The notes under the pieces are model-generated. The model searched no databases. It was not told where the DNA came from and worked only from the letters and a program-made list of their open reading frames with translations. A program made the position numbers and the translations under genes. 64,000 nucleotides of DNA from Desulfurobacterium thermolithotrophum DSM 11699 (GTDB lineage Bacteria > Aquificota > Aquificia > Desulfurobacteriales > Desulfurobacteriaceae), in contig NC_015185.1 in the NCBI RefSeq assembly GCF_000191045.1, positions 62,001 to 126,000 of the forward strand, written 5' to 3'. Shown piece after piece: positions 9,493 through 12,704 of this stretch (positions within the stretch are counted from its first letter, which is position 1; each line of letters opens with the position of its first letter).

Positions 9493-9861
9493 TTGGATAC
9501 TCTAGAAAAGCTAAAAATTGCTCTAAAAGCGGCCCTTGATAAAAAAGCAGAAAATCCTGTGATTATTGATTTAAAAGATTTAACGACTCTTGCAGATTAT
9601 TTTTTAATAATTACTGTTAACTCTGATGTACATGGAAGAACAATTGCTGATGAGATAAGGAAAAAGCTGAAAGAAGAGGGAATTGTACCTTTGAACATTG
9701 AAGGTTACGATGCTGCAAATTGGATTCTAATAGACTATGGTGATTTAATCGTTCATATATTTAAGGACGAATTCAGAGAGCTTTACAATCTCGAATCTCT
9801 GTGGATGGATGCTCCAAGAGTGGAAATTGCAGACCTCTTACCGGAGGAAACAGGCGTTTGA
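9493..9861 (+). CDS. rsfS: Ribosomal silencing factor RsfS
   Basis: RsfS binds L14 on the large subunit and blocks joining of the subunits when nutrients are scarce. The 122-aa product shows the family core: DLKDLTTLADYFLI, the GRTIADEI helix, GYDAANWILIDYGD and VHIFKDEFREFYNLE-type ending (here FRELYNLESLW). The start is TTG with a GGAGG site 7 bases upstream, and the stop overlaps the rlmH start. The rsfS-rlmH pair is a widely conserved arrangement, which supports both calls. Confidence 0.95.
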   Translation: MDTLEKLKIALKAALDKKAENPVIIDLKDLTTLADYFLIITVNSDVHGRTIADEIRKKLKEEGIVPLNIEGYDAANWILIDYGDLIVHIFKDEFRELYNLESLWMDAPRVEIADLLPEETGV

Positions 9862-10271
9862 AAATAAGAATTGTCGCTGTAGGAAAAATTTCTACTATTT
9901 TGAAAGAAGCACAAGAACATTATTTGCAAAAGCTTAGAATTTTAGAGATTGTAGAAGTCAAAAAGCAGAGAACAAAGGAAGATGAAGGGAAAAAGCTATT
10001 GGAGAAGGCTAAGGGATACATCGTGGCTCTTGATGAAAGGGGGAGGGAGATGACCTCAAAGGAATTTGCATCCTTTCTTCAAAAACACCCTTTCATTACC
10101 TTTATAATTGGTGGTGCAGATGGACTTTCAGAAGAAGTTAGAGAAAAGAGTAATTTTCTCCTCTCCCTTTCCAAGTTTACTCTTCAGCACGATATTGCAA
10201 GGATAGTTCTTTTAGAACAAATCTATAGAGCTGACCAGATAATCAAGGGAACACCTTATCATAGAGACTGA
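9858..10271 (+). CDS. rlmH: 23S rRNA (pseudouridine1915-N3)-methyltransferase RlmH
   Basis: SPOUT-class methyltransferase that modifies pseudouridine 1915 in helix 69 of 23S rRNA. The family motifs are present: VALDERG, the knot segment FIIGGADGL, and the C-terminal LLEQIYRADQII followed by PYHRD. I place the start at TTG 9858, overlapping the rsfS stop as TTGA, because it gives the usual N-terminus (KIRIVAVGK) and GGAGG lies 10 bases upstream. The product is then 137 aa, slightly shorter than E. coli RlmH. It converges on nifB with only one base between the stops. Confidence 0.95.
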   Translation: MKIRIVAVGKISTILKEAQEHYLQKLRILEIVEVKKQRTKEDEGKKLLEKAKGYIVALDERGREMTSKEFASFLQKHPFITFIIGGADGLSEEVREKSNFLLSLSKFTLQHDIARIVLLEQIYRADQIIKGTPYHRD

Positions 10272-10272
10272 A

Positions 10273-11241
10273 TCACTCTTCAATCTTTTCAAGTTCACAA
10301 CTTCTGCATACAACTATTTTTCCACTCTTCTCTAAGAAGACTTCAAACAGGTCATAACCATTTGAAGAAGCAACAGTTATAAATTTATTTTTTCTTTTCT
10401 GTTCTCCTCTTACTCTTCCTACTGCATCTGCTCTGCACCTTCCACAATGGTTCATTATTTTAAGACCAAGTTTTTCAAGTTCATTTTTTATTTTCTTTAA
10501 TTTTTCTTTTTGGGGTGTTTTTTTTATACCTTTTTTCCAAAAGACTGTACCTTCAACTGGTATCATAGGAATAACATTGTAAATATAGATTCCTAACTCT
10601 TTCATAAATTTTCCTATTTCAATTATATGGTTGTCATTAATGCCGGGAATCATAACGGTGTTAACTTTTACTAAAATGTTACGGGAAAGGAGTTTTCTTA
10701 TGCCTTTTATTTGATTTTCAATAATTAATTCAGCCATTTCTCTATTTTTGTAAACTTTTCCATCTTTTACAGCAAAGGAATAAATGTTTTCAACGATTGC
10801 TGGATCAATACCGTTAACTGTAACTGTAACATGTTTTATCCCAAGCTTTTCTATCCAGTCTATATTTTCAGGAAGACTTAAGCCGTTTGTACTAAGACAT
10901 AAATGCATATCTGGATAGATTTTTCTAATTAGGTTAAAGGTTTGTCTTGTTTTTTCTGCATTTGCAAGAGGATCTCCAGGTCCTGCAATTCCTGCAACTG
11001 TTAAGTAAGGAAGTTTTTCTCTATAGAAAATTGTTTTAAGTGCAGCTTCTTTTGGAGTCAGGACTTGACTTGTAACACCGGGTCTAGATTCATTTGAGCA
11101 GTCGTATTTTCTATTGCAAAAATTGCAAAGAACGTTGCATTTTGGAGCTACAGGAAGATGAATTCTTCCATAATCTTTTGCATTCTTGTTATAGCAAGGA
11201 TGTTTTCTTATCAGTTTTTCAATTTTTGTTGTTACTGTCAT
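10273..11241 (-). CDS. nifB: NifB, radical SAM protein of nitrogenase cofactor synthesis
   Basis: NifB builds the carbide-containing 8Fe-9S core (NifB-co) of the nitrogenase cofactors. Diagnostic signatures are HPCYNKNA (residues 14-21), YGRIHLPVAP, the SAM cluster Cys35-x3-Cys39-x2-Cys42, ESRPG (51-55), AGIAGPGDPL and the C-terminal HCGRCRADAVG that supplies ligands for an accessory cluster. At 322 aa it has only a short C-terminal extension instead of the full NifX-like domain of many bacterial NifB proteins. No other nif gene is in the window. It has its own sigma-54 promoter and upstream dyad. Confidence 0.93.
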   Translation of the reverse strand: MTVTTKIEKLIRKHPCYNKNAKDYGRIHLPVAPKCNVLCNFCNRKYDCSNESRPGVTSQVLTPKEAALKTIFYREKLPYLTVAGIAGPGDPLANAEKTRQTFNLIRKIYPDMHLCLSTNGLSLPENIDWIEKLGIKHVTVTVNGIDPAIVENIYSFAVKDGKVYKNREMAELIIENQIKGIRKLLSRNILVKVNTVMIPGINDNHIIEIGKFMKELGIYIYNVIPMIPVEGTVFWKKGIKKTPQKEKLKKIKNELEKLGLKIMNHCGRCRADAVGRVRGEQKRKNKFITVASSNGYDLFEVFLEKSGKIVVCRSCELEKIEE

Positions 11242-11274
11242 AATGACCTCCGTTTTTCTTTAAAAAACGAAGGA

Positions 11275-11290
11275 AGCAAGTAACATGCCA
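11275..11290 (-). promoter_or_regulatory. Sigma-54 promoter of nifB
   Basis: Read on the minus strand the bases are TGGCATGTTACTTGCT. This matches the -24/-12 consensus TGGCAC-N5-TTGCW with one change and has the required GG-N10-GC spacing. It predicts transcription starting near 11264, about 23 bases before the nifB ATG. Sigma-54 control of nif genes through NifA is well established; the match and position here are read directly from the sequence. Confidence 0.82.
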
Positions 11291-11344
11291 AAGAATTTTT
11301 ATTGAAATCAAAGATTTTAGAACAGCTCTTTTGTTATTTTTATT

Positions 11345-11372
11345 ACAAAGTGTAATTTTCCTTACATTTTGT
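11345..11372. promoter_or_regulatory. NifA-type upstream activator dyad for nifB
   Basis: An 11-bp inverted repeat (ACAAAGTGTAA and TTACATTTTGT, one mismatch, 6-base spacer) contains TGT-N10-ACA at 11351-11366, the classical NifA upstream activating sequence. It lies about 60 bases upstream of the -24 element of the nifB promoter, a normal distance for an enhancer-binding activator. Another dimeric activator could bind the same dyad. Confidence 0.65.
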
Positions 11373-11397
11373 AAGTTTTTCTACAGATAGAATTTTT

Positions 11398-12324
11398 CTA
11401 CAGTTTTGAGAATTTACATTTCGTTCCCTGAAAGGTATTTCTTTCTTCAAATCTTCTTCTTATCAAATTTATTACTCTGTTCTTCTCCTTATGGCTGCAC
11501 CATTCGGGGCCGATCAAAAGGTCTTCTGGAGCTTCTCCAGTTATTCTCTGAATAACTGTTTCTTTTGGTAATCTTTCGATAAAGTCAACGACTAAATCCA
11601 CATATTCTTCAAGCGTTAAAAGTCTGAACCGCTCCTCAAGGTAAATTTTTTCAAGCGCAGTATTTTTTATCACATGAAGTGGATGGATTTTTACGCCGTC
11701 AACTTTCAGTGCTGCTAAAAATTTTGCCGTCTCCATCATGTCATCGTAATCTTCTGTTGGAAGACCTAAAATCGTATGGACGCAAATGTTTATCTTTGAA
11801 AACTTCCGGGTTCTCAAAACAGCATCCACAAAATCGGAAACCCCATGTCCCCTATTCATCCATCTTAGGGATTTAAAGTGAGAGCTTTCCAGTCCATACT
11901 CTATCCACACAAGATAATCTTCTGTATAGGAGTTAATTAGCTTTAGCGTTTCATCTAGTACACAGTCTGGACGAGTACCAATAATAAGACCTACAACTTC
12001 CGGAAATTTCTTAATTTCATCGTATATGGGCTTCAAAACTTCCGGTGGAGCGTAGGTGTTGGTGTATGCCTGAAAATAAACGAGAAATTTCTTTGCTTTG
12101 TAGCGCCTCTTAACCCTTTCTATTCCCTCAGCTATCTGCTTCTCTATCTCCTTCCTTCTCTTTTCAGGATCATAATCAGAGCCAGAGTAACAGTAAATAC
12201 ATCCCCCTTTCCCTTTAAAGCCATCCCTATTAGGACAGGTGAAGCCGGCATCTACTGTTACTCGATAGACTCTTTCCCCAAATAGATTTTTAAGGTATCT
12301 GGAATAGGAGTAATACCTCTCCAT
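11398..12324 (-). CDS. YhcC-type radical SAM protein (TIGR01212)
   Basis: Radical SAM enzyme of unknown substrate, related to the Elp3-like group. The cluster ligands are Cys30, Cys42 and Cys45 in an unusual spaced form (CPNRDG then GGCIYC), which is typical of TIGR01212. Downstream are YFQAYTNTYAP, IGTRPDC, EYGLES and HTILGLPTED, all family blocks. Length 308 aa is normal. Its ATG overlaps the end of the acidic-protein gene by one base, so the two are co-translated. The nifB activator site lies just beyond its stop, so nifB is probably transcribed independently. Confidence 0.9.
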   Translation of the reverse strand: MERYYSYSRYLKNLFGERVYRVTVDAGFTCPNRDGFKGKGGCIYCYSGSDYDPEKRRKEIEKQIAEGIERVKRRYKAKKFLVYFQAYTNTYAPPEVLKPIYDEIKKFPEVVGLIIGTRPDCVLDETLKLINSYTEDYLVWIEYGLESSHFKSLRWMNRGHGVSDFVDAVLRTRKFSKINICVHTILGLPTEDYDDMMETAKFLAALKVDGVKIHPLHVIKNTALEKIYLEERFRLLTLEEYVDLVVDFIERLPKETVIQRITGEAPEDLLIGPEWCSHKEKNRVINLIRRRFEERNTFQGTKCKFSKL

Positions 12325-12704
12325 TAGAGTTCCTCTTCTTCTTCCTCAAACTCTATACCAATTGGTATGAGCTCTGCAACATCAGAAAGTTCCCACTCTT
12401 CAAATTTTTGTTTACCAAGTTCTTCGCATTCCATTGGGACAACAAAGAGAAAACCTTCACCTGATCTTCTGCAGTGTTCTGCTATTGTTTTTGCTTTTTT
12501 CTCAGATTCTTCTGCTTCAAGAGTTTGGCAATCTTCTACCTGGACAGCAATTTGCTGATTTTCGCCGTTTTCATCCGTATAAACGGCTAAAAAGTCAGGA
12601 AGGTATTCTTCGTCTGCCTCTACTTCGTAAATTTCAAATCCTTCTTCTTCCATTAAAGCAGCAATTACTTCTATTAATTCTTCTCTTGAAAGTTTTTCTT
12701 CCAT
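12324..12704 (-). CDS. Acidic hypothetical protein, 126 aa
   Basis: A soluble, very acidic protein (Glu over a quarter of residues) ending in a Glu run, FEEEEEEL. The middle segment, FLAVYTDENGENQQIAVQVEDCQ, read as short pieces, looks like a small alpha/beta domain with Cys residues at DCQT, EHCRR and MECEE. No named family is recognised; it could be a nuclease-fold-like or modification-associated protein. It precedes and overlaps the YhcC-type gene by one base, so the two probably act together or at least share expression. Confidence 0.7.
   Translation of the reverse strand: MEEKLSREELIEVIAALMEEEGFEIYEVEADEEYLPDFLAVYTDENGENQQIAVQVEDCQTLEAEESEKKAKTIAEHCRRSGEGFLFVVPMECEELGKQKFEEWELSDVAELIPIGIEFEEEEEEL

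Follow-up and report, generated by a model that had tools for sequence, protein, structure and literature searches.

The DNA analysed here (the window) is a stretch of 64,000 nucleotides, positions 62001-126000 of the single-contig genome of the thermophilic vent bacterium Desulfurobacterium thermolithotrophum BSA-T (1,541,968 bases). The genome is complete and consists of one circular chromosome, and the published nitrogen sources of the strain are nitrate, tryptone and yeast extract (PMC3368423). A nifB open reading frame encoding a 322-aa product lies at 11241-10273 on the minus strand, and a 156-base gap separates it from a yhcC-like gene. The features of the locus are as follows; G123 and G126 are nif-bearing genomes of the same family.

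9801-10271, plus strand: rlmH, from the list of open reading frames; convergent neighbour, the stop codons of the two genes nearly touching; boundary of the nif insert
10276-10359, minus strand: NifZ-derived tail, residues 295-322, GYDLFEVFLEKSGKIVVCRSCELEKIEE, identified by local alignment; the stop codon follows at 10273-10275
10357-11241, minus strand: NifB-derived part, residues 1-295, comprising the radical-SAM core and, from the NifX domain, the first strand (FITVASSNG); TIGR01290 match
11247-11251, minus strand: ribosome-binding site GGAGG read from the sequence, 5 bases ahead of the ATG at 11241
11275-11290, minus strand: sigma-54 -24/-12 promoter TGGCATGTTACTTGCT, exact match to TGGCAY-N5-TTGCW; predicted start near 11264
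11332-11347, minus strand: TGT-N10-ACA box TGTAATAAAAATAACA, starting 57 bases upstream of the -24 TGG; G123 has it at -58 and G126 a near-match at that position
11351-11366, minus strand: TGT-N10-ACA box TGTAAGGAAAATTACA, starting 76 bases upstream of the -24 TGG; both G123 and G126 have it at -77
11370-11385, minus strand: third TGT-N10-ACA box TGTAGAAAAACTTACA, starting 95 bases upstream of the -24 TGG and keeping the 19-bp register; present in the window but not in G123 or G126
11398-12324, minus strand: YhcC/YtqA-type radical-SAM tRNA-modification gene (TIGR01212, 363 bits), upstream neighbour and other boundary

The description of nifB in the first-pass annotation as an isolated gene flanked by rlmH and a YhcC-type gene was borne out by the TIGR01290 and TIGR01212 matches, and no second nif gene was found near it in the window. 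The YhcC/YtqA-type gene is present in 22 of 22 family genomes. Adjoining it family-wide is a gene (12324-12704 in the window) for an acidic 126-aa protein with a weak TnsA-like endonuclease match at its N-terminus.

The product scores 366.5 bits against the NifB equivalog TIGR01290 of NCBIfam (cut-off 343.65). PDB structures of NifB match it over the radical-SAM domain, the matching solved chains being 288-296 aa long. A set of 12 other NifBs has 63 invariant columns, and the product keeps every one of them, as well as the conserved motifs HPC, CX3CX2C, NESRPG, AGPGD and CX2CRADAVG. The NifB part ends in KFITVASSNG, which aligns with RFIAVTSSDG, the strand that opens the NifX domain of the relatives. 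The break follows this strand, so that the C-terminal NifX/NafY domain is incomplete and the NifZ tail stands in place of its remainder. This domain is usual in bacterial NifB and absent in archaeal NifB, and is thus not strictly required.

The last 28 residues align with the C-terminus of NifZ from G123 and G126 with local scores of 98 and 100, and with NifB of the same genomes with scores of only 26-27. Shuffled tails gave a mean of 22 (s.d. 4.3, maximum 46 in 2000), placing the NifZ match at a z of about 18. In both relatives NifZ (Pfam PF04319, E 1e-13 to 1e-14) is the product of the last nif-cluster gene. A Pfam search with the tail region alone gave no hit, the region being too short: of the NifZ domain, about 90 residues long, only the final 28 are left. 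The glycine codon GGT at 10357-10359 is common to the NifB and NifZ parts, and is present in both parent genes of G126. Since the last 28 residues are NifZ and not NifB, the predicted gene is shown to be an in-frame nifB'-'nifZ chimera joined at this codon. No description of a NifB-NifZ fusion, or of nifB in Desulfurobacterium, was found in the open-access literature, although one may exist.

The sigma-54 promoter proposed earlier for nifB was confirmed, TGGCATGTTACTTGCT fitting TGGCAY-N5-TTGCW without mismatch at 11290-11275 on the minus strand. The exact motif has six matches in the whole 1.54-Mb genome, three of which are correctly oriented for the gene that follows, namely nifB, glnB-amtB and, at 884 kb, a gene neighbouring a sigma-54 activator. 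When one mismatch was allowed, 101 genome matches were obtained against 40 for the reversed control. The NifA-type dyad claimed upstream of the promoter proved to be part of a richer element: three TGT-N10-ACA boxes follow each other in exact 19-bp steps, and the TTACANNNTGTAA dyads are the abutting edges shared by adjacent boxes. When these 156 bases were simulated with a dinucleotide Markov model, two or more such boxes arose in 0.075% of trials. Equivalent sigma-54 sites precede nifB in G123 and G126, and the boxes lie at -76/-57 in the window, at -77/-58 in G123, and in G126 at -77, plus a near-match at -58. As box spacing and position are kept before nifB in these NifA-encoding relatives, and rpoN is present in the BSA-T genome, assignment of the promoter to the NifA/sigma-54 type is well supported. 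The glnB promoter was considered as a sister site and rejected, boxes of the nifB type not being found upstream of glnB. The perfect site at 884 kb (L038 4347-4362, genome 884347-884362) precedes a rubrerythrin-like/cytochrome gene pair; it adjoins the second sigma-54 response regulator of the genome with its kinase and is probably that regulator's own target.

The genome encodes two full sigma-54 activators, both receiver-AAA-Fis response regulators: NtrC, beside its kinase, and the one at 886 kb. Further candidates (L003-L005), weak and partial domain matches in ORFs of 812-854 aa, were not counted. NifA of G123 is a GAF-AAA-Fis protein of 531 aa whose gene adjoins nifV, and of the 22 family genomes only G126 has an ortholog of it (81% identity). 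No NifA was found in the complete BSA-T genome, where matches to the G123 protein span the AAA and helix-turn-helix part only, and neither resident activator has the NifA recognition helix TPRQINYR. Directly after ntrB-ntrC lie two small 4Fe-4S ferredoxin genes (L040 10058-12146, genome 823-825 kb), with a flavodiiron-type gene and molybdopterin genes on the opposite strand.

Nitrogenase genes are likewise absent. No match to PF00148, the family of NifD, K, E and N, was obtained in the complete genome, and no true NifH was found there, the best score of 25.7 bits falling short of the cut-off of 394. The diazotroph minimum gene set is nifHDKENB (PMC3464626); nifH, D, K, E and N of this set were not found in BSA-T, which thus does not count as a diazotroph by it. 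Two stand-alone NifX-family (PF02579) proteins above the cut-off are encoded at L093 2879-3247 and L094 9592-9948, one beside a carbon monoxide dehydrogenase gene and one near a hydrogenase cluster.

These results bear on the first-pass reading of nifB as a member of a scattered NifA regulon. The sigma-54 promoter and NifA-type boxes at nifB are what such a regulon would display, and rpoN, one of the genes to be looked for, is there. However, the searches for nifHDK and nifA found none of these genes in the complete genome, and the lack of nifA had been named in advance as fatal to the idea. A search for further copies of the dyad before nif genes had also been proposed; no other copy of the 32-bp double dyad was found genome-wide, even with up to 3 mismatches allowed. 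Because the combination of a sigma-54 site with a TGT-N10-ACA box occurs only once in the genome, at nifB, a NifA regulon does not exist in BSA-T, and the scattered regulon is refuted for this genome, with virtually no chance of being correct. What stands of the earlier interpretation is the NifA/sigma-54 type of the promoter; the regulon falls, and the promoter appears to be a remnant before a nifB-nifZ chimera that had been missed.

A live nitrogen-control regulon of nifB and glnB-amtB under NtrC could also be considered, as ntrB-ntrC and rpoN are in the genome and glnB-amtB has a perfect sigma-54 site. The boxes before nifB have no counterpart at glnB, however, the promoter-plus-box combination is unique, and the recognition helix of NtrC (RNTLRKK) differs from that of the relatives' NifA (PRQINYR). 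Such a regulon is therefore very unlikely.

To see what may once have surrounded the gene, the relatives are informative. In the G123 cluster nifB is the first gene and nifZ the last, in the order nifB, modA, modB, modC, nifH, D, K, E, a NifX-family gene, N, X, two PII genes, a ferredoxin gene, a small gene and nifZ, with nifV-nifA divergent from nifB. These names were read from ORF sequences, NifZ and NifA being confirmed with Pfam and NifB separately. The cluster of G126 has the same ends and is spread over three contigs. In a NifB tree, which holds 13 sequences only, the window protein is sister to G123/G126 (support 100/99), and its branch is the shortest of the three. The available NifB orthologs are only 58-59% identical to it in protein, and when named genomes were searched with this one protein a single relative, Alkalibaculum, was returned.

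The chromosomal slot itself is variable. Both same-genus draft genomes, G121 and G122, are without nifB, and no nif remnant was found in them, the rlmH-yhcC gap included. In G121 the slot (L104 2644-2991) holds a CRISPR-like array with five repeats TTGAAATGCCCTRAAAAGTGGAAGGGATTG, and in G122 (L098 about 2470-2720) an ORF for a RelB/DinJ-like antitoxin; in more distant genomes (L109 and L112), rlmH and yhcC abut tail to tail, with no insert between them. The slot resembles a hotspot for insertions, and given its variability in the genus a nif cluster there could have been either inherited or acquired. The NifB/NifZ junction might accordingly be an older natural fusion that was transferred horizontally, as such, into this site. 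The varied contents of the slot (a CRISPR array, a toxin-antitoxin-like gene) and the sparse occurrence of nif within the family would suit such a transfer. Against it, the NifZ tail is carried by no other NifB among those compared, breaks inside the NifX domain and in mid-NifZ suit a deletion, and the composition of nifB is ordinary (GC3 0.207 versus 0.253, s.d. 0.045). Transfer of a ready-made fusion is highly improbable.

The locus is, in all likelihood, the scar of a lost nif cluster, left by a deletion from nifB to nifZ with in-frame fusion, nifA also having been lost and the gene being probably silent or weakly expressed. The ancestor of D. thermolithotrophum would have had a nif cluster with nifB first, under a NifA/sigma-54 promoter, and nifZ last, as in G123 and G126. 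One deletion, from the start of the NifX domain of nifB to the last third of nifZ, would have removed all that lay in between, nifHDKEN included, and its ends would have been fused in frame, leaving 28 residues of NifZ as a tail on the radical-SAM core of NifB. A deletion is suited by the two breaks, in NifB inside the NifX domain and in NifZ in mid-domain. The nifB promoter would outlast such an event, and the boxes and the sigma-54 site are indeed present; nifA and nifV would have been lost separately. Since no NifA remains for the intact sigma-54 promoter and its three boxes, the chimera is probably silent or weakly expressed; weak expression could come, for example, from NtrC acting without a site of its own. 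The chimera, the conserved promoter and the absence of NifA and of NifH/D/K/E/N are shown directly, whereas we infer that one deletion was the mechanism, that it was recent and that the gene is silent.

Several observations speak against the loss of a cluster at this site. The lost cluster is reconstructed from relatives of another genus, whose own cluster lies beside TetR-pgsA and not in the rlmH/yhcC slot, and the same-genus drafts G121 and G122 are without a nif remnant. No sequence decay is visible: the reading frame, the ribosome site and the promoter are undamaged, and none of the 63 invariant residues is lost. An intact gene on the shortest branch is compatible both with continued use and with a recent loss; with the NifB-invariant residues kept, either the loss was recent or the product is still used. 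In another Aquificota genome without a nifB match, nifDK-family genes with many internal stops were seen (G079:C11:30756-36057); the nif genes there have decayed by mutation, in contrast to the clean fusion in D. thermolithotrophum.

The chimera could thus be a retained, working NifB, kept by selection and supplying [8Fe-9S-C] NifB-co to a non-nitrogenase acceptor, as in nitrogenase-less methanogens. In addition to the invariant residues, its branch is shorter than those of the diazotroph orthologs, and solved NifB chains of 288-296 aa match it, archaeal NifB functioning as a bare radical-SAM core. Two stand-alone NifX-family proteins are at hand in BSA-T. The nitrogenase-less Aquificota genome G033 likewise keeps nifB, the sigma-54 site and three boxes. 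Against a working NifB, no PF00148 protein, the best-known class of receivers of the NifB cluster, is encoded in the genome, no activator with a NifA recognition helix is left there, and both same-genus genomes manage without nifB. A working product is unlikely on these grounds, and a silent relic is preferred because the genome encodes no cluster-receiving PF00148 protein.

When compared with NifB (TIGR01290), the FeMo-cofactor maturase with a NifA/sigma-54 promoter, the window protein shares the radical-SAM core and all invariant residues, and its promoter shares with other NifA/sigma-54 nifB promoters the -24/-12 site and the TGT-N10-ACA boxes in the usual arrangement. It differs in that the NifX domain is cut after the first strand and replaced by a NifZ end, and in that the BSA-T genome is without NifA, NifEN and nitrogenase. 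G033 (1,559,514 bp), probably Hydrogenobaculum sp. Y04AAS1, is a parallel case of retained nifB: there too nifB is kept without PF00148 proteins and is preceded by a sigma-54 site and three TGT-N10-ACA boxes (L089 8649-8776), but it is full length, is followed by an intact nifZ, and modABC is kept. That two Aquificota lineages retained nifB and its NifA-type promoter after nitrogenase loss for a non-nitrogenase role of NifB-co or NifB, the D. thermolithotrophum chimera being functional, is distinctly unlikely.

Loss of a nif operon thus seems to be recorded in a deep-branching thermophile, with both operon ends in one fused gene, the promoter intact and the activator gone. Hence nifB, even with an equivalog-level NifB call, does not imply nitrogen fixation. 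The question is also raised whether bacterial NifB, like that of methanogens, can have a role where nitrogenase is missing. Archaeal NifB works as a bare radical-SAM core and is essential in some methanogens that lack nitrogenase genes, probably for MCR activation (PMC12176620). The BSA-T gene resembles it as a NifB with a bare radical-SAM domain in a genome without nitrogenase; the methanogens, however, have a receiver system in MCR activation, whereas none is known in BSA-T, whose gene has a nif promoter in front and a NifZ tail at its end.
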